A stretch of 26,946 nucleotides of DNA from a virus, in the IMG/VR virus record IMGVR_UViG_3300007775_000023, positions 1-26,946 of that record. One strand, 5' to 3'. The notes beneath the pieces were generated by a model. That model did not search any database. It worked only from the letters and a program-made list of their open reading frames with translations, and had not been told where the DNA came from. Every line of letters begins with the position of its first letter. Positions within the stretch are counted from its first letter, which is position 1. The position numbers and the translations under genes are program-made. Below, piece after piece: positions 2,616 through 10,819 of this stretch.

Positions 2616-2792
2616 ATGGAAACAAAAATTATTAAGATCTACGAGTCAATCAAAGATCCAAATCCAATCATAATTACAAAAGTGACTGGTTTTACTGTCG
2701 ATGGTGATGGCACTCTGATCGTGAAGGACTCTTGTAGTGTATGTTATTTCGCTGCTTTATCTTGGGCGCGGTATGACGTGTTAGATGAATGA
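2616..2792 (+). CDS. Small hypothetical protein, 58 aa
   Basis: The ATG is preceded by gagggt at 2605-2610, a good ribosome site. The protein starts METKIIKIYESIKDPNP, then beta-like IIITKVTGFTVDGDGTLIV, and ends with SCSVCYFAALSWARYDVLDE, which contains a CSVC pair. Its TGA overlaps the ATG of the methyltransferase gene (ATGA), the standard arrangement for coupled translation, which supports it being a real gene co-expressed with the methyltransferase. Base composition is more AT-rich than the structural genes. No family recognised. Confidence 0.6.
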   Translation: METKIIKIYESIKDPNPIIITKVTGFTVDGDGTLIVKDSCSVCYFAALSWARYDVLDE

Positions 2793-3970
2793 ATCAAATC
2801 ACCTGGACAAACGAAAAGCGCACCTTGCGCAGCCTGGCACCGTGGGAGAACAACCCGCGCTACATCAAGGATGCGCAGGCAGAGCGGCTGCTCGAATCCT
2901 TCAATGAGTTCGGGCAGGTGCTGCCCATCTGCATTGGGCCAAGTGGCGAGGTGTATGACGGACACCAACGCCGGAGCGTGATCGGCGCGGCGGATGCGTA
3001 TGGCATGGACTTCGAGATTGATGTCCGTGTGGCGAGCCGAGAACTGTCGGAACGCGAACGGCAAAAATTGACCGTATATTTGCACCAGGGCGCTGCGGGG
3101 CAGTGGGATTTTGAAGAGCTAGCGAATAGTTTCGATTTTGATGATTTGGTGCTGTGGGGGTTCGATAGTGACTTTCTGTTGGGCAACGGCTTCGACGAGC
3201 CGGAAGAAGCCGAGCCATCCGACGCTGAGCCACAGATTGACCGAGCCGCAGAGCTGCTCGAAAAGTGGGGCGTCAAACCCGGCGACCTGTGGCAGATTGG
3301 CGGGCACCGGTTAGTGTGCGGTGACTGCACCGACGCTGCGACGGTGGAGATGGTGATGGGGGGCGAGAAGGCGGATACGCTGATTTTCGATCCACCGTGG
3401 GATAGTCAGGTAAATATCCCTGTAGATGGCTATCAGTCGGTGCTGGCTTTTGCAGATGGATACCGTATTGGTGACCTGGTGGAGATATTCGGGCGACCTA
3501 CATGGATTTTTGTTTGGGATTGCGTAACGAGTTGGTATACGCCCAATAGACCATTGCGAAGACATAAGAATTGTCTTTGGTATGGCGATATTAGCATGTT
3601 TGATTTTGACGCAGCACATTACGGAGAAGCACCAGAAGCAAAGACGGTGACGAATACGAGGGGATCTTACGATTACAAGCCAGACACGCGGGGCAAGCAT
3701 TTGTCCGATGTGTTTGTTTCTCAAATCACGGCCGAACATGCGACCCATCTGCACAAGCATCAAAAGCCGCTTGATTGGATGCGGCTTTTGATCGGGGATT
3801 GTACGAATGGATTAGTATATGACCCGTTTATGGGGTCGGGAACATCGTTAGTTGCATGTCACCAACTGGGTCGTTTATGTTTTGGGTGCGAGTTGGAACC
3901 CGCGAATGTGGCTGTTGTGCTAGAGTGGGTAACGGACTTAGGAATCCATCCCGTCCGTGATGCTGATTGA
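2789..3970 (+). CDS. ParB-domain / DNA methyltransferase fusion (N6-A or N4-C, beta order)
   Basis: The protein has 393 residues. Residues 10-70 look like a ParB/sulfiredoxin-type domain (PWENNPRYI, FGQVLPICIG, VYDGHQRRSV). Residues 172-205 carry GDCTDA and the catalytic motif IV DPPW (201-204). Residues 322-335 have HKHQKPLDW, resembling the QKP segment. Residues 345-352 have DPFMGSGT, the S-adenosylmethionine-binding motif I, followed by GCELEP. Catalytic motif before cofactor motif is the beta arrangement of amino-methyltransferases. Fusions of this kind are common in phages and usually act without a partner restriction enzyme, protecting or marking phage DNA; no endonuclease is seen here. 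The start overlaps the 58-aa gene stop (ATGA). The last 143 bp overlap the convergent radical SAM gene. Exact base specificity cannot be read from sequence. Confidence 0.9.
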   Translation: MNQITWTNEKRTLRSLAPWENNPRYIKDAQAERLLESFNEFGQVLPICIGPSGEVYDGHQRRSVIGAADAYGMDFEIDVRVASRELSERERQKLTVYLHQGAAGQWDFEELANSFDFDDLVLWGFDSDFLLGNGFDEPEEAEPSDAEPQIDRAAELLEKWGVKPGDLWQIGGHRLVCGDCTDAATVEMVMGGEKADTLIFDPPWDSQVNIPVDGYQSVLAFADGYRIGDLVEIFGRPTWIFVWDCVTSWYTPNRPLRRHKNCLWYGDISMFDFDAAHYGEAPEAKTVTNTRGSYDYKPDTRGKHLSDVFVSQITAEHATHLHKHQKPLDWMRLLIGDCTNGLVYDPFMGSGTSLVACHQLGRLCFGCELEPANVAVVLEWVTDLGIHPVRDAD

Positions 3971-5804
3971 TGTATTTCGGATTGTAGTACCCGGTCGGCA
4001 GGTACTTTTGCAAATCCTTTTTAATGTAATGCTTGACGCCGAGGCGATTGACCGTCTCGACGATACGATGGGTGTAATCTTCCCAGTCCGTATTGCTTGT
4101 CATCGGCAGATAGTTGGCTCTACCGATTTTGAACAGGTCTACGAATTCATGCGTATGTTCGATGATTGCAAGACTGCTATCGCAATCGAGGGTCGGCTCA
4201 AGGCTGACCCACGTAAATATCCCGGCATCGTGAAATGTCTTGAGTGTGGCAATTCGATCACCTGGAAGAGCAGCGCCACGTTCCCATTTCTGGCTAAATG
4301 CGTCATCAAGAGATGTGAGCGTAGACGCAAAGGCGTCACGGTCGGGGCGAAATAAGTCAATGTCACGCATGGCACGCTTGCCGCCCTTGGTCAGGGTGCA
4401 GATGCCCAGGCCATGCGCCTGGAGCGACTTAAGGACATCACGAGTCAGCGTGTTGTCGAATGGGTGATAGGGGTCGGTCGTAAAGGACAGCATCACTTGC
4501 TCTGTGATGCCGAGTGCCTGATATTTATGGGCGTCTTTTTCGAGCAGGCGCATAAAGTTTGGCCGCTCGTTGGCCCCGCTGTCGAACTCGGGGCGAGTCA
4601 TGCGCAGGACTTTCGGAACATAACAATTGTGGCTAATCATGCCGTTGGCGATAAAGTTCTCAGTGCCTGTTGTAATGTCGAACATGTCCATAGTTTTATT
4701 GAGTGGTTCGATACTGACAACCTTGACGTTTTCGCTGATGGCTTGTCCGTCAAGGGTAAATTTCCGTTTAATGGACGGATTGATCAGTTGCCAGAAACGC
4801 AGATGTTCAGAGCGACCGCCACGAATGCGGATGTAGGAGACATCACGTTGGGACGGAGTTTCACGGACAAAATCGAAACCGAAAGTTGAAAGCGCTTTTT
4901 CGGTAGTACCAAGGATGGAGGGGTCAGAGTTTGCAATTCGCAAAGCTTGTTTTCCGTGACTGCCTTCTGCGTCAAAGATTCCAGCCAGCCAACCACGTTG
5001 CCATTCGCTGTCGTCTTGGCGGGTAAGCATTGATTTTATTTTGGCAAATCGTGTAGGACTGGTTGTTCCGATAGCAAACATGGGTTCACCATCACTTGGA
5101 AAGTCGAAGTCAGTTGTTTTAATGCCATGCTGAGTAAGATAGGACTTGGTTCGATGCAATGCACAAGTGTCTTTGAGTGCCAACCGAAAACGATGTTGAA
5201 TACCTGCCGTTTTCCCCGATGGGCGACGCTTGTGCGAATAGTCGTAGATCGCCAAGTTAGCGTCACCTTCGACCATGCCAGCAATGTATCCGATCTGGTA
5301 ATTCGTGCTCTCTGTGGGTGTCAGTGTAGCTGCACCCAGCTTGCGGATAAAATTGTTGACTGTCAGATGCGGACGTTGGCCATCGCCACTTGTTGCGCCG
5401 GTCGTGTATTTCCATCCGCGCTCTGTGAGCCATCGGTGATCGGCGGAACAAATAGCGGTAGTACCATCGGCGAGTGTAACTTTATAGGCTTCCTTATGCG
5501 TAGAAATCTTAGCAAGCACTGTCGTAGTAGTGATACGTGTGCCCCAAGACCGCTTCTTTCCGTCCAAGGTAACGCCAATAATGGTGTCGCCGATTTCGAT
5601 ATCACGGAGTGTTTTTGTAGAACCATCGGCCATTTGGATGAGGGTATCACCATCAAGACAGTATGCACACTTATGGCCGCAGCCGCGATAGGGATTGGTC
5701 GCAAGCTTGGAGTACTCCCCAGCCTGCCCACGGGGGGCATAAATCATGGAGCAGCCTTTTACGCTCCAGCCGTCTTCATTCATTGTGTAGGTTCGGGTTT
5801 TCAT
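3828..5804 (-). CDS. SplB-like radical SAM protein interrupted by a LAGLIDADG intein
   Basis: The precursor has 658 residues. The exteins (1-48 and 394-658, 313 residues together) resemble COG1533/SplB-type radical SAM proteins: NPYRGCGHKCAY then CYVPKVL gives CX3CX2C after splicing, followed by TTDPYHPF, TLTKGGKRAMRDIDL, WVSLEPTLD and DLFKIGRANYLPM. The expected activity is SAM cleavage to a 5'-deoxyadenosyl radical at a [4Fe-4S] cluster; the substrate is unknown, and DNA repair is only one possibility, by analogy with spore photoproduct lyase. The intein occupies residues 49-393. The start has aaagga about ten bases upstream and overlaps the 69-aa gene by 29 bp. The recognisable domain ends near residue 610 (TGYYNPKY); the last 47 residues are antisense to the methyltransferase motif I region and may be a run-on tail. 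It is the last gene of the minus-strand operon. Confidence 0.88.
   Translation of the reverse strand: MKTRTYTMNEDGWSVKGCSMIYAPRGQAGEYSKLATNPYRGCGHKCAYCLDGDTLIQMADGSTKTLRDIEIGDTIIGVTLDGKKRSWGTRITTTTVLAKISTHKEAYKVTLADGTTAICSADHRWLTERGWKYTTGATSGDGQRPHLTVNNFIRKLGAATLTPTESTNYQIGYIAGMVEGDANLAIYDYSHKRRPSGKTAGIQHRFRLALKDTCALHRTKSYLTQHGIKTTDFDFPSDGEPMFAIGTTSPTRFAKIKSMLTRQDDSEWQRGWLAGIFDAEGSHGKQALRIANSDPSILGTTEKALSTFGFDFVRETPSQRDVSYIRIRGGRSEHLRFWQLINPSIKRKFTLDGQAISENVKVVSIEPLNKTMDMFDITTGTENFIANGMISHNCYVPKVLRMTRPEFDSGANERPNFMRLLEKDAHKYQALGITEQVMLSFTTDPYHPFDNTLTRDVLKSLQAHGLGICTLTKGGKRAMRDIDLFRPDRDAFASTLTSLDDAFSQKWERGAALPGDRIATLKTFHDAGIFTWVSLEPTLDCDSSLAIIEHTHEFVDLFKIGRANYLPMTSNTDWEDYTHRIVETVNRLGVKHYIKKDLQKYLPTGYYNPKYINQHHGRDGFLSPLPTLAQQPHSRVPTRTQNINDPVGDMQLTMFPTP
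4626..5660 (-). mobile_element. Intein (345 aa) with LAGLIDADG homing endonuclease
   Basis: Begins at Cys49 (block A, CLDGDTLIQM) and ends ISHN before Cys394, the standard Cys1 / His-Asn / Cys+1 class 1 splice pattern. Block B is CSADHRWLTE (SxxH in place of the usual TxxH). Two LAGLIDADG motifs are present, YIAGMVEGDA (173-182) and WLAGIFDAEG (272-281), each with an acidic residue, so the endonuclease looks intact. Block F is MFDITTGTENFIANG, with Glu where His is usual; block G is NGMISHN. Precise removal joins KCAY to CYVP and rebuilds the radical SAM cluster motif. All splicing residues needed appear present. The homing site would be the intein-free CX3CX2C codons of related genes. Confidence 0.93.
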
Positions 5805-5985
5805 GGGTTTGTTCCTTTGCTGTCGTTATTTGATGATCGGCTATGGCGACCATCAATTTTCCGATTGATGGTTTATTGTTAAAAAAATAGCCGAATTTTT
5901 CGGCTATTTTTTCTAACGCTATTTTTCTCTGCTCACCCTGGACACCAGCCCCCAGATGAACAGAGATTACAATATTTTTTAACAT
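5776..5985 (-). CDS. Small hypothetical protein, 69 aa
   Basis: The ATG at 5985 has aaggaaa upstream and overlaps the stop of the 60-aa gene by seven bases; its own end overlaps the radical SAM start by 29 bases, so it fills the operon exactly. The middle segment ALEKIAEKFGYFFNNKPSIG then KLMVAIAD has the look of small phage proteins with a helix, a GY turn and an SIxxLMxAIAD helix, which I recall only loosely. No catalytic motif. A perfect hairpin at 5882-5912 lies inside it, which is odd for a coding gene and lowers confidence a little. Confidence 0.55.
   Translation of the reverse strand: MLKNIVISVHLGAGVQGEQRKIALEKIAEKFGYFFNNKPSIGKLMVAIADHQITTAKEQTHENPNLHNE
5882..5912. terminator. Bidirectional terminator-like hairpin inside the 69-aa ORF
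   Basis: AAAAAATAGCCGAA (5882-5895), loop TTT, then TTCGGCTATTTTTT (5899-5912): a perfect 14-bp stem that ends in a T run on either strand. On the minus strand it would attenuate transcription between the 60-aa gene and the radical SAM gene; on the plus strand it would stop read-through toward the terminase. The GC core is only about six pairs, so strength is uncertain. Confidence 0.6.
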
Positions 5986-6161
5986 ACGCTCAGTTTCCTT
6001 TCGATTTCGTTGTATTTCTGGTCAATTGCGAAAATCTTATGAAAACAATCTTCGTCTGGATTGTATCCATGTTTCAGGTAGAGCTCGATCACTTTTTCGC
6101 GTTGCTCTTCCAGAGCGGTCAGGCTGTCTAGTAGTTTCTCGAATTTGTCTCGGTTTTTCAT
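5979..6161 (-). CDS. Small coiled-coil-like protein, 60 aa, first gene of minus-strand operon
   Basis: ATG at 6161 behind an excellent ribosome site, aggagag, about five bases upstream, and about 30 bases after the predicted transcript start of the consensus promoter at 6200-6228. The protein is highly charged and helical: MKNRDKFEKLLDSLTALEEQ, then REKVIELYLKHGYNPDEDC, ending with an IDQKYNEIERKL helix. No helix-turn-helix is evident, so it is probably not the repressor of its own operators. Family unknown. The longer overlapping frame 6037-6318 is rejected because it crosses the promoter. Confidence 0.75.
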   Translation of the reverse strand: MKNRDKFEKLLDSLTALEEQREKVIELYLKHGYNPDEDCFHKIFAIDQKYNEIERKLSVC

Positions 6162-6190
6162 GGTTTCTCTCCTGTTGTTGATTTTTTGTT

Positions 6191-6200
6191 TCTATATAGA
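6191..6200. promoter_or_regulatory. Palindromic operator candidate O1 (TCTATATAGA)
   Basis: Ten-base perfect palindrome covering the predicted transcription start and touching the last base of the -10 box. A bound repressor here would block the promoter. Identical to the site at 6212-6221, with a centre-to-centre distance of 21 bp, two helical turns. Confidence 0.7.
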
Positions 6201-6228
6201 TTATACCACCATCTATATAGAATGTCAA
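6200..6228 (-). promoter_or_regulatory. Perfect-consensus sigma70-type promoter for the minus-strand operon
   Basis: On the minus strand TTGACA (6228-6223) is followed after exactly 17 bases by TATAAT (6205-6200). The predicted start is near 6193, giving a leader of about 30 bases to the aggagag site and the ATG at 6161. Consensus at all twelve positions with ideal spacing implies a strong, early-type promoter that needs repression. Confidence 0.9.
6212..6221. promoter_or_regulatory. Palindromic operator candidate O2 (TCTATATAGA)
   Basis: Second identical perfect palindrome, lying in the promoter spacer between -35 and -10. Two identical dyads on the same face of the helix suggest cooperative binding of a dimeric regulator, not encoded visibly in this window. 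Confidence 0.7.
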
Positions 6229-6277
6229 TAGTTTAGTCCAATACTCGTGCGGAAAGACGATTTCTTTAAGGTTTGTA

Positions 6278-6285
6278 TCTATAGA
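6278..6285. promoter_or_regulatory. Shortened operator-like palindrome (TCTATAGA) before the terminase gene
   Basis: Eight-base palindrome equal to the other two sites minus one central AT step, nine bases upstream of the small terminase ATG. It could let the same regulator act on the plus-strand packaging operon, but an 8-mer can arise by chance. No convincing -35/-10 pair was found for the plus strand in 6229-6290. Confidence 0.35.
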
Positions 6286-6293
6286 GTTAGTAT

Positions 6294-6833
6294 ATGGCAG
6301 CACCAAAACGAACGGCATTTCAACGAGAACATGACTACGAACGCATCACCGGCTACTATCTGCGCGGCTGGTATCAGTCGGACATTGCCAAAGAGCTAGG
6401 ACTGTCACAGCAACAAATCAGCATCGATATCCGTACCATCCAAACCCGCTGGCGCAAAGACACGGCCATCAACCTAGACGAGGCCAAACAAAAGGAGCTT
6501 TCTCGGCTGGATGAATTAGAACGTGAGTTCTGGCAGGCGTGGGAATCGAGCAAAGATGAGCGCACGAAGGCGCGGCAGGAGAAGACCGGCGACTTAGTTA
6601 CGAAGGCATCAATGGAGAAAGAGCAGCGCGACGGCAACCCCGCATTTTTGCAGGGTGTATTGAGTTGCATTGACCGGCGCTGTAAACTACTGGGCATCGA
6701 TGCGCCGGTGAAGACGCAGAGCATTGATATTGATCTATCCAAGCTCAGCAACGAACAGCTTGACCAGGTGGCAAATGGAGCAGACCCGATGAAAGTGGTA
6801 CTCGATGGATACATCGCTAGCGCTCAGGGCTAG
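6294..6833 (+). CDS. Terminase small subunit
   Basis: The protein has 179 residues. Residues about 20-50 form a helix-turn-helix (YQSDIAKELGLSQQQISIDI), used by small terminases to recognise packaging sites. A charged helical middle (LDELEREFWQAWESSKDE) fits the oligomerisation region, and the C-terminal part has LQGVLSCIDRRCKLLGIDAP, a sequence typical of phage small terminase proteins, then a short tail that may contact the large subunit. It is followed with a 29-bp overlap by the large subunit. The ribosome site is weak (tagagtt about ten bases upstream). First gene of the plus-strand packaging and head cluster. Confidence 0.85.
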   Translation: MAAPKRTAFQREHDYERITGYYLRGWYQSDIAKELGLSQQQISIDIRTIQTRWRKDTAINLDEAKQKELSRLDELEREFWQAWESSKDERTKARQEKTGDLVTKASMEKEQRDGNPAFLQGVLSCIDRRCKLLGIDAPVKTQSIDIDLSKLSNEQLDQVANGADPMKVVLDGYIASAQG

Positions 6834-8457
6834 GGCGGAATTAGAGCGGCGGCGGCGCGGGTTGACCGCTGGCAATCGCTTCGAGGAGTACCAGTTCGAG
6901 CCGATCCGTTACATCATCGAAAAACTGCGCTGGCATCCGTGGGCAGGGGACGATCATCCTGGGCAGGTCGAGGTACTCGACGCATACCGGCGGGCCCTGC
7001 TACAGTTGCATGAGCGCGACGATTACGAGCAGGGCAACAAGGCGCGCGGCGCACTTGAGCACTGGACGCCGGGCCAGGTCATAAAAAACCGGATACGCAT
7101 CGAGGCTGGGCATACGGTCGGCAAAACAAAACTGGCATCGGGCATCCTGTCGCATTTTTTTGATTGTTTTGTGCCGTCGATTATTTATTCGTTTGCACCG
7201 TCGTCTGAGCAAATCAACGACCTACTGTGGAAGGAAATCCGCACCGACCGCCGTAAAAACAATCTACCCGGCAAGGTGCTAAAAATCCCACAGCTCGACT
7301 TTGGGGAAAGCCAACCTGATCATTTCGCTAAGGGCCGCGCCACGAATAACATCGGCACGGAGGGCATCCAAGGTCAGCACGGTAAATACCTGATGTTCAT
7401 TATCGATGAGGCGGAGGGCATTGCCGATTTTGTTTTCGATGCGGTGGAATCGATGACCAGCGGTGGGATCGCCATCGTGTTGATGTTGGCGAATCCACGG
7501 ACACGAACGAGCCGTTTTTACAAGCAGCGCACGCGGGATGATATCGAGAATTTCCGGATTTCATGCCTGTATCACCCCAATGTGTTGGCTGACCGTGAGA
7601 TTGTACCCGGCGCTGTTCGCCGTGGCTATGTGACAGCGATGGTAAAAGACCATGCCGTTGAGGTTGATGAGCACAACGAAGACGAGCATACTTTTTGCCT
7701 ACCGTGGCAACCGGATGTGATTTATCAGCCTGATACAGAGATACTTTTTCGTGTCCTAGGCATCGCCCCGGCGAACTTGGCCGGTAATACATTTGTCCCG
7801 GTTGGCCGGTATGAAGCAGCCAAGGCGCGAACGCCGGTGGGTCATGAGCCGGAAACAGCTAGAATCGGCATTGATGCAGCACGGTATGGCACCGATTTTG
7901 GCACCATTTATTGTCGGCACAATGGCGCGGCATGGCGCGTGGCCGCTATCCAGGGGCAAGACACAAATGCCTATTTGAACAAACTCAGACCGCTACTGGA
8001 ACGGCTGCACCGGCGTGGCGTAAAACGCGTTGATATCCGGGTTGATGGCGGCGGCGGGTATGCCAGCGGCATTGTCGACCCGCTGCGGATTGACATGGAT
8101 TTGCGCAAGAAATTTGAATTGGTTTTACGCGAGGTGCATTTCAATGGGGTGCCGCATGACGCTGCGAGTTACTATGATCTAGGGACAGAGATGTACGCCG
8201 AATCCGGCGAGACGATGAAAGGATTAGCGATCACGAATGCGCCGCCATTGCTGGAAGAGGACTTGACCGAGCGCACCTATGGATACGTCAACAAAAGTGG
8301 CGTTGCTGTGAAGAAATTGGTCGATAAAGAGAAGTTCAACAAGGATTTTCACCGCTCACCAGATGACGGAGATGGATTTGTGTTAGCGGTTGCGCCTGAT
8401 TTTATATTTATCAAACCAGTTTCACCAATCGCCCAAGGCAAAGCGAAAATGAGATAA
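6805..8457 (+). CDS. terL: Terminase large subunit (ATPase-nuclease)
   Basis: The protein has 550 residues and drives DNA packaging into the prohead through the portal. ATPase domain: Walker A AGHTVGKT (101-108), Walker B YLMFIIDEAE (195-204, catalytic D201/E202), and a probable coupling motif MLANPRTRTSRF. Nuclease domain, RNase H-like: first Asp in IGIDAARYGTD (D357), second in RVDGGGGYASG (D414), and third in the SPDDGDGF region (about 518-525). All the metal ligands expected are present, and length is normal. The start at 6805 overlaps the small subunit gene by 29 bp, consistent with coupled synthesis. The protein looks complete. Confidence 0.95.
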   Translation: MDTSLALRARAELERRRRGLTAGNRFEEYQFEPIRYIIEKLRWHPWAGDDHPGQVEVLDAYRRALLQLHERDDYEQGNKARGALEHWTPGQVIKNRIRIEAGHTVGKTKLASGILSHFFDCFVPSIIYSFAPSSEQINDLLWKEIRTDRRKNNLPGKVLKIPQLDFGESQPDHFAKGRATNNIGTEGIQGQHGKYLMFIIDEAEGIADFVFDAVESMTSGGIAIVLMLANPRTRTSRFYKQRTRDDIENFRISCLYHPNVLADREIVPGAVRRGYVTAMVKDHAVEVDEHNEDEHTFCLPWQPDVIYQPDTEILFRVLGIAPANLAGNTFVPVGRYEAAKARTPVGHEPETARIGIDAARYGTDFGTIYCRHNGAAWRVAAIQGQDTNAYLNKLRPLLERLHRRGVKRVDIRVDGGGGYASGIVDPLRIDMDLRKKFELVLREVHFNGVPHDAASYYDLGTEMYAESGETMKGLAITNAPPLLEEDLTERTYGYVNKSGVAVKKLVDKEKFNKDFHRSPDDGDGFVLAVAPDFIFIKPVSPIAQGKAKMR

Positions 8458-8463
8458 CCAACT

Positions 8464-9966
8464 ATGGGATTCACTGACTACCTCCAAAAACTACTTGGCC
8501 GCCCACCAGCGCGTAAACCGCAGGGGGTAACTACCCGCGCCGTGACTGGGGGCCGCGCCTCCATCGATGGGGCAAACATGATCCCCAACGCGTCGTGGCT
8601 CATCGTGCCACCGGCAAACTATGAGACCAACTGGCAATTAATCAATCTGCAATCGAAGGATTTCGACCAGATTAATCCGGCGTTTTTGCTGGAGGCGATG
8701 ATGGACTTATCGCCAGAGATCAGCCGCGCCGGGTGGGATTTTCTCCGGCTGATGAATCCGGGTTGGGAATTGAAGGTCACGCGTCCCGGCTCCGATGCGG
8801 AATATACCGAGGCTCAAGCGCTGCTTGAGTCGTTCATCGACGAACTTAGCGACATGTATGGCTCATTTGACATCCTGCTGGGCCGCATTCACATCGGCGG
8901 TTTCATGCGCGGTGCCCTATGCGCTGAGTTGGTACTGAATCGCCGGGGCCGGTTGCCGATCGATCTTGCCACGCCTGACCCCGTGTCGATTCGTTTTCGC
9001 AAGCGCAAGGACGCCGAACGCGGCGAGGTGTGGCAGCCGGGGCAATGGCAGGAATACAAGTTCATGCCGCTGGATATGCCAACGTTTCGCTATGTGCCAA
9101 TCGACCCGTTACCGGCGTCACCGTATGGCCGACCGATGGCAGCCCCGGCGCTGTTTACCTCCATCTTTCTATTAGGCGTCATGCACGATCTCCGGCGAGT
9201 CATTCAACAGCAGGGTTACCCGCGGCTCGACCTGTCAATCGACGTTGACCAGCTGCTCTTATCCGCACCGCATCTAGCGAGTGATACAGTTGCCTTCGAC
9301 GCCTGGGTTGCCACCCTGGTGGATAGTGTGGCAACCGCTTACAGCGCACTTGAGCCAGATGATGCCTATATCCATACCGGCAATGTATCCGTCAATCGAC
9401 CCGTGGGAGCCGGTGGCACCGCTTCGCTCGGTGGCATTGATGCCCTGATTACAGCCCTGGAACGAATGGCCGTCCGCGCACTGAAAACTATGCCGCTAAT
9501 GCTGGGCATTACGGACAATATTGGCGATGTGCAAAGCAACCGCCAATGGGATATTTTTTCAGCCGGTATCAAATCGATCCAGCATTACAGCGAAACGATG
9601 ATCGAACGACTGTTTGCGTTGGCCCTCGAGGCGCAAGGCGTGCAGGCTGATGTGGAATTTCGCTTCTCCGAATTCCGCACAGCAGAACGCCTTCGCGATG
9701 CCCAGGCCGAGGCGATGGAAATCGCCAACGAGGCGGAGAAGCGCGACCAGGGCTGGCAAGACCAAGACACGGCAAGCGAGGCCGTCACCGGCTCCTCCTC
9801 TGTAGCCGATGCCCCCAGCGCTCAGCCAGTTGCGTCGGGCATTGTACAGGGCAGCGCCGATGGAATGCAACTAAATGGCGCGGCGCTAGCGCAACTCCGC
9901 ATGGCCCAACAAGATGTGCACGAGGCACTTAAGACGGTACGGCTAAATGGATACCATGCAAATTGA
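8464..9966 (+). CDS. Portal protein
   Basis: The protein has 500 residues and lies directly after the large terminase and before the MuF-like gene, the classic portal position. Sequence features agree: AFLLEAMMDLSPEISRAGWD near the N-terminus, a wing-like beta region (AELVLNRRGRLPIDLATPDP), FRYVPIDPLPASPYGRPMAA, and the stem/crown part RALKTMPLMLGITDNIGDVQ followed by QSNRQWDIFSAGIKSIQHYS, then a long acidic helix (RTAERLRDAQAEAMEIANEA). A low-complexity Ser/Ala-rich tail ends the protein. As a dodecameric ring it would form the DNA channel and head-tail joint. gataacc is the only upstream purine patch, six bases after the terL stop. Complete. Confidence 0.9.
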   Translation: MGFTDYLQKLLGRPPARKPQGVTTRAVTGGRASIDGANMIPNASWLIVPPANYETNWQLINLQSKDFDQINPAFLLEAMMDLSPEISRAGWDFLRLMNPGWELKVTRPGSDAEYTEAQALLESFIDELSDMYGSFDILLGRIHIGGFMRGALCAELVLNRRGRLPIDLATPDPVSIRFRKRKDAERGEVWQPGQWQEYKFMPLDMPTFRYVPIDPLPASPYGRPMAAPALFTSIFLLGVMHDLRRVIQQQGYPRLDLSIDVDQLLLSAPHLASDTVAFDAWVATLVDSVATAYSALEPDDAYIHTGNVSVNRPVGAGGTASLGGIDALITALERMAVRALKTMPLMLGITDNIGDVQSNRQWDIFSAGIKSIQHYSETMIERLFALALEAQGVQADVEFRFSEFRTAERLRDAQAEAMEIANEAEKRDQGWQDQDTASEAVTGSSSVADAPSAQPVASGIVQGSADGMQLNGAALAQLRMAQQDVHEALKTVRLNGYHAN

Positions 9967-10819
9967 CTGGTCAATCGAGAAGGGGCTGTTCGGCTTGGGA
10001 CGCGCCTTTGATGCGCTGGTGACTACACGCCAGGGCCCCCATGATAAGCTCTCCACGCTCAAAGCGCGCCTTGATGAGGATTGGCAAGGCGACATGTTGC
10101 CGATTATCGAGGATCTATACTGGTATCCATTCCGCAACGGTATCGCCGAAGCGCCGGAAAGCGCGGAGGACTTGCGGTCATGGCTGGAGCGGCAATATGA
10201 CGATGCGGCTATCATTGCGATTCTACTGCTACTATTACAGCGCTACCAGATACGGGCGTACAACCTGGGTGGTCAAATCGGGTTAGAATTTCTCGGCATT
10301 GACGGCACATTTGATTTGACCAACGCTGAGATTATCGCCGCTCTCGATGCCTGGGCGGAGGATCTGACCACGCAAGGCACTGAGTACAGCCTGATTGACA
10401 CGACGATTGAGGATTTGACCAGGGAATTACCCAAAGCACGCGAGGCGGACAGCAGCACACTACTCGCGCTGTCCGCCTACATTGCCTTACGGTCTGCGCA
10501 GCGCAATGAGATGATCGAACGGTCAGAGCGTCCGCGAATGGTGGCGCAGGCATTGATGCAAGCATTCCAACGCAACGGCGTTGCTCACATGATGTATGAT
10601 ATCAATGGCATTGGCTGCCCACAAATCTGTGAGCCGTGGCATGGACGTGTTTTTCCGGTTCCATCACAGGGGGGGGTTATCCCGCAACATCCGCGCTGTG
10701 ATTGTATCTGGTCACCGGTCATGTATGACGGACAATTGGTTGGCTATCCGCCTGTCATTGTGAATGTGTCGGGTCTCCCGACATGGGAAGCACCGGAGGA
10801 CGTATGGACGGGAACGTAA
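9947..10819 (+). CDS. Head morphogenesis protein, MuF-like C-terminal domain
   Basis: The protein has 290 residues and overlaps the portal gene by 20 bp. The N-terminal two thirds are helical with a hydrophobic AAIIAILLLLLQRYQIRAYN patch (about residues 87-106). Residues about 205-260 carry the MuF signature: MMYDINGIGCPQICEPWHG, then VPSQGGVIPQHPRCDCIWSP, i.e. C-x-x-x-C-x-x-W-H-G followed by P-x-H-P-R-C-x-C. This domain is found in minor head proteins such as Mu gpF and SPP1 gp7 that assist prohead assembly or DNA delivery. A second in-frame ATG at 9956 is an alternative start. A G8 run at about 10669-10676 lies inside the gene. No extra C-terminal toxin domain is fused. Confidence 0.85.
   Translation: MDTMQIDWSIEKGLFGLGRAFDALVTTRQGPHDKLSTLKARLDEDWQGDMLPIIEDLYWYPFRNGIAEAPESAEDLRSWLERQYDDAAIIAILLLLLQRYQIRAYNLGGQIGLEFLGIDGTFDLTNAEIIAALDAWAEDLTTQGTEYSLIDTTIEDLTRELPKAREADSSTLLALSAYIALRSAQRNEMIERSERPRMVAQALMQAFQRNGVAHMMYDINGIGCPQICEPWHGRVFPVPSQGGVIPQHPRCDCIWSPVMYDGQLVGYPPVIVNVSGLPTWEAPEDVWTGT

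Follow-up and report, generated by a model that had tools for sequence, protein, structure and literature searches.

A probable homing-type intein at the third motif cysteine of a phage-encoded SplB-like radical SAM protein

Inteins in radical SAM proteins have been catalogued before, and an insertion site directly before the third Cys of the motif NPYRGCxHxCxYC is covered by the curated NCBIfam model NF038136 (intein-containing Rv2578c family radical SAM protein), while NF045703 covers an intein-containing tetraether lipid synthase (Tes). The intein of Pyrococcus abyssi MoaA presumably sits at the third cluster Cys of its host enzyme, which is consistent with the Cys at its position -3. Oxidation reportedly joins this N-extein Cys at -3 to Cys1 in a disulfide that blocks splicing (Callahan 2011, as described in PMC10663303 and PMC3922620). 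In the M. smegmatis DnaBi1 intein, the +1 Ser of the P-loop doubles as a Mg2+ ligand of the mature enzyme, and the splicing nucleophile is inhibited by a disulfide or by zinc (PMC6195587, PMC7360933).

Here, we describe an intein in a radical SAM gene of a phage contig of 26,946 nucleotides (positions 1 to 26,946 of IMG/VR record IMGVR_UViG_3300007775_000023; hereafter, the window, meaning this whole stretch). The precursor gene (3828..5804, minus strand) starts with ATG and encodes 658 amino acids. On the same strand, the N-extein (residues 1-48, 5661..5804), delimited by the translation and by intein-free homologues, ends in NPYRGC42GHKC46AY and is followed by an intein of 345 amino acids (residues 49-393, 4626..5660), delimited by Pfam, the TIGR01443 C-terminal splicing region and the alignment. 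The intein opens at C49 with CLDGDTLIQ, a typical block A, and closes with NFIANGMISH392N393, after which the C-extein (residues 394-658, 3831..4625; Pfam and intein-free homologues) begins with C394-YVPK. The two first Cys of the CX3CX2C motif, C42 (codon 5679..5681) and C46 (codon 5667..5669, intein position -3), as well as C49 (codon 5658..5660, Cys1 and formal third ligand in the precursor) and C394 (codon 4623..4625, +1, third ligand after splicing) are invariant in the 46 aligned precursors. The preliminary description had read C42-GHK-C46-AY-C49 in just this way, with C49 as intein residue 1 and C394 replacing it upon splicing, and both the translation and the intein-free homologues bear it out; its span, 4623-5680, was right except for one missing base of the C42 codon.

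The window protein shares with NF038136 the insertion site, a homologous intein and a homologous SplB-like extein, and the alignment to the model spans the two exteins as well as the intein (E 7e-69). However, the window protein is phage-encoded and its 233 bits lie below the cut-off of 700, which places it outside the NF038136 equivalog. Tes and a bacterial AmmeMemoRadiSam enzyme (L077) are likewise radical SAM exteins with inteins, but belong to other radical SAM families, and the similarity of their inteins is only distant. P. abyssi MoaA is also a radical SAM extein with a Cys at -3 beside Cys1 (C46 and C49 in the window), although of another family, and the redox control reported for it is hypothetical for the window intein. 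DnaBi1 resembles the window intein in that the +1 residue coordinates metal once the enzyme is mature, but it is a class 3 mini-intein in a helicase, with Ser at +1 and no Fe-S motif.

Three phage homologues without intein (L002, L003 and L004) provide exact empty sites. Their matches to the precursor break precisely at residues 49 and 394 and read CGH[KG]CAYCYVP uninterrupted across the insertion point, so the junctions are exact; this was the comparison with intein-free exteins that the preliminary description had proposed as a check. The C-extein of L002 is 62% identical to that of the window. The phage gene and its intein are certainly real. The best 80 of 108 confirmed phage relatives all matched an intein-free query without interruption, a fraction that is not an unbiased occupancy rate because the query lacked the intein and only these 80 were compared. 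Among the retrieved loci there were 75 uninterrupted NPYRGCxHxCxYCYVP sites, in which almost every motif codon was invariant at its first two positions; this follows from the fixed amino acids and is partly a product of selection, the sites having been found by their amino acid motif. Within the phages, the tree groups the window with L018 and L025 (about 78% intein identity) and with L020, and L018 and L025 retain matches to the methyltransferase and terminase-side genes. In L025 (11545 bases), the radical SAM gene with its intein is also present twice, owing to a near-perfect inverted repeat of 3.3 kb that is either a terminal repeat or an assembly artefact. A contig of 4368 bases from another metagenome (L005) is 100% identical to window positions 5685-10052 and ends 24 bases before the intein junction; this end point may be due to chance, or to a population in which occupied and empty alleles coexist.

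The intein matched the Pfam model Intein_splicing (PF14890) over residues 57-393 with 38.8 bits (cut-off, 35.8), and LAGLIDADG_3 (PF14528) was above its cut-off in the precursor at residues 267-332. Cys1 (C49), the block B His (H123, in SADH), the block F Asp (D376), the C-terminal His-Asn (H392 and N393) and Cys +1 (C394) are all present and invariant in the 46-sequence alignment. Both LAGLIDADG motifs, IAGMVEGD (residues 174-181, 5262..5285, minus strand) and LAGIFDAE (residues 273-280, 4965..4988, minus strand), keep their acidic residue, and Foldseek matched the intein to endonuclease-bearing inteins, including VMA inteins, and to I-DmoI, in line with an I-DmoI-like fold. Judging from its residues, this is a class 1-type intein of the Cys1/His-Asn/Cys+1 kind that bears a LAGLIDADG homing endonuclease, and it would be expected to splice and to home.

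The joined exteins scored 37.6 bits with the Pfam model Radical_SAM (PF04055; cut-off, 29.5), compared to 23.5 bits for the precursor, so that only the former passed. In contrast, the spore photoproduct lyase family model PF20903 matched neither the precursor nor the joined exteins in Pfam, and the protein is thus SplB-like rather than a member of SplB by that model. AlphaFold modeled an intein-free relative with an overall pLDDT of 92.5 and with no 10-residue block around the motif below 85; its Foldseek neighbours were SuiB, spore photoproduct lyase and viperin, and the TM score of 0.63 with the lyase structure 4fhf denotes resemblance of fold only. The CX3CX2C motif, PF04055 and this modeled fold together assign the predicted spliced protein to the radical SAM superfamily. 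In the precursor model, pLDDT fell below 50 in the motif loop (residues 41-45) and at residues 396-402 and 407-413, which leaves the junction too uncertain to be read; such values are not proof of disorder, but compared to the intein-free relative they do not point to a cluster site that is already formed. This bears on the proposal of the preliminary description that a [4Fe-4S] cluster held by C42, C46 and C49 masks Cys1 and stalls splicing until it is lost or oxidised. The precursor does have a formal CX3CX2C, and zinc on the splicing nucleophile inhibits the mycobacterial DnaB intein (crystal structure 6OWN; PMC7360933). However, Cys1 has to occupy the intein active site, the active holo-enzyme would be hardest to make precisely when the Fe-S supply is good, and the published analogue in P. 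abyssi is reportedly gated in the opposite direction. We regard such a switch as extremely improbable.

A search for the insertion site, another check put forward in the preliminary description, showed that it is not new, being catalogued in NF038136 and known in many bacteria. We scanned species genomes with a degenerate DNA version of the pattern C-x3-C-x-[YF]-[CS]-[LFIVM]-x-GDT-x-[IV], and at least 120 loci matched, nearly all reading NPYRGCxHxCxYC followed by [LMV]xGDT. Short frames that matched the N-junction pattern, WHWLFRCLCSCPFCLIGDTSG and similar ones, were discarded as chance matches. Among the matches listed, 92 bacterial loci could be parsed and have the intein at the same codon, with HN before Cys at its C-terminal end; the taxa among these matches were mostly Actinomycetota, together with Pseudomonadota, one myxobacterium (Myxococcota) and a Candidatus Omnitrophota MAG. 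The window intein is about 40-47% identical to those of the bacterial loci, whereas the exteins are only about 26-31% identical. Phage and bacterial inteins fall apart on the tree, so it does not show a recent transfer. At 15 of the 92 loci (L039, L040, L041, L045, L047, L059, L063, L087, L088, L092, L095, L112, L120, L133 and L147) the intein has only 137-174 amino acids, with no room for an endonuclease, and long persistence without mobility therefore occurs, which could hint at a function.

Most inteins start with Cys, and an intein insertion point needs a nucleophile at +1, which in this stretch is the cluster Cys. A Cys1 intein placed directly before the third motif Cys therefore keeps CX3CX2C in the precursor automatically, and the coincidence of the two Cys adds no information and needs no regulatory explanation. 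All 104 parsed precursors have Cys1, albeit in a weak test, as they belong mostly to one intein family and the patterns favour Cys (Ser TCN codons were allowed and AGY serine codons left out), and all 104 have the Cys at -3, which the scan pattern required. A phage B12-binding radical SAM protein (L175:6284-8857, plus strand) has a third-Cys intein that starts with Ser (CPFACSF, then SVTGDT...ISHN, then C), and its precursor motif reads CX3CX2S. The precursor CX3CX2C is thus dispensable at such sites. Together with the mostly empty alleles and the opposite direction of control reported for P. abyssi MoaA, this left the idea that oxidation or cluster loss frees a masked Cys1 unsupported.

The third-Cys site was occupied in about 10 distinct phage radical SAM lineages of IMG/VR (the window group, L020, L017, L011, the L007 group, L008, L022, L026/L028, L029 and L175; L008 is a fragment and was counted without a profile search), a mildly new observation. 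In the bacterial enzyme L077, the site reads CDFHCDFC followed by FPGDT, and the intein Cys is again the third motif Cys. Other phage radical SAM proteins have insertions at the second Cys (L155:1238-3685, plus strand, and probably L171) or at the first (L173:12795-14843, plus strand, and L174). The third-Cys site looks the commonest of the three, from a rough count with scan patterns of unequal sensitivity; the C-side pattern applied to the other two sites would detect roughly half of the lineages occupied at the third. Virus Rctr197k (L006, KX853510.1, 19211-22480), annotated as "radical SAM protein-like," was set aside, as its extein proved to be that of a helicase-like ATPase, with only the intein in common; the annotation appears to derive from that intein.

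This recurrence bears on a second regulatory reading, in which oxidation would link C46 to C49 by a disulfide and so prevent the first step of splicing, restricting production of the oxygen-labile enzyme to reducing conditions. The geometry and the enzyme superfamily are those of P. abyssi MoaA, for which such a block has been reported (PMC10663303 and PMC3922620), C46 is invariant at -3, and the site has been occupied in about 10 phage lineages. With C46 at -3, a similar response of the window precursor is plausible in vitro; its direction would be opposite to that of the Fe-S proposal. However, C46 is fixed as a cluster ligand, which makes its presence at -3 uninformative, insertions at the first and second Cys exist too, empty alleles predominate among the phage relatives, and Ser1 occurs at the third-Cys site of L175. 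A redox control of this kind seems unlikely. We consider it very unlikely that the folded intein gathers C42, C46, C49 and C394 into a four-thiol site that binds Zn(II) or a cluster and reversibly inhibits splicing. All four Cys are invariant in the 46 precursors (three of which residues the scan pattern demanded), C46 and C49 form a CXXC pair around AY, and the documented zinc inhibition of inteins, as on the DnaBi1 nucleophile, makes metal masking chemically possible (PMC7360933), but each Cys is already needed for splicing or by the enzyme and their invariance is uninformative. Inteins have settled at the third Cys repeatedly, in about 10 lineages of phages and in at least two families of bacteria, and a broader version would have them retained for a latch, responsive to redox state or to metal, that Cys-3 and Cys1 form close to C42 and C+1. 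Oxygen-labile enzymes would then be held back until their clusters can be assembled; this, too, we hold to be quite improbable.

Very likely, then, the window carries a homing-type intein belonging to the family of site alleles of SplB-like (Rv2578c/PA0069-type) radical SAM proteins, with the precursor motif as a by-product of splicing chemistry. The sporadic occupancy of a conserved site, the intact endonuclease motifs and a conservation that is higher in the intein than in the host protein are consistent with homing. The site would have been chosen because the NPYRGCxHxCxYC codons are highly constant DNA, well suited as a target of the endonuclease, and because splicing requires that a nucleophilic Cys follow the intein at +1. 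Once translated, the precursor would splice by an N-S acyl shift at Cys49, transfer to Cys394 and cyclisation of Asn393, and excision would restore C42-C46-C394 and hence the [4Fe-4S]/SAM site, the unspliced enzyme being presumably inactive. Any redox sensitivity would most likely come from an incidental Cys46(-3)-Cys49 disulfide, as in P. abyssi MoaA, and we infer that the intein does not regulate the enzyme.

The gene order around the precursor is phage-like. The radical SAM gene adjoins, on the opposite strand, a gene whose product is ParB-like in its N-terminal part and an N6_N4 methyltransferase in its C-terminal part (2789-3967, plus strand). On its other side lie a probable small terminase gene (6294-6833, from its position in the gene order; the PHROGs label is RNase E) and the genes of the terminase large subunit (6805-8457) and the portal (8464-9966). 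A sigma-70 promoter-like site (6200..6228, minus strand), a perfect TTGACA-17-TATAAT with a TG extension identified by consensus match only, faces the radical SAM gene, upstream of it and of a small ORF (5979-6161).

We found no description of this phage case in the titles and abstracts of the open-access papers searched for inteins and radical SAM proteins. The window extends an intein site known from bacteria by a phage branch and supports the view that related homing inteins are common to phages and bacteria in radical SAM genes. Insertion at the third Cys recurs across radical SAM families, and these loci offer a natural panel of precursors for a long-standing question, the possible regulation of splicing by cysteines of the extein.
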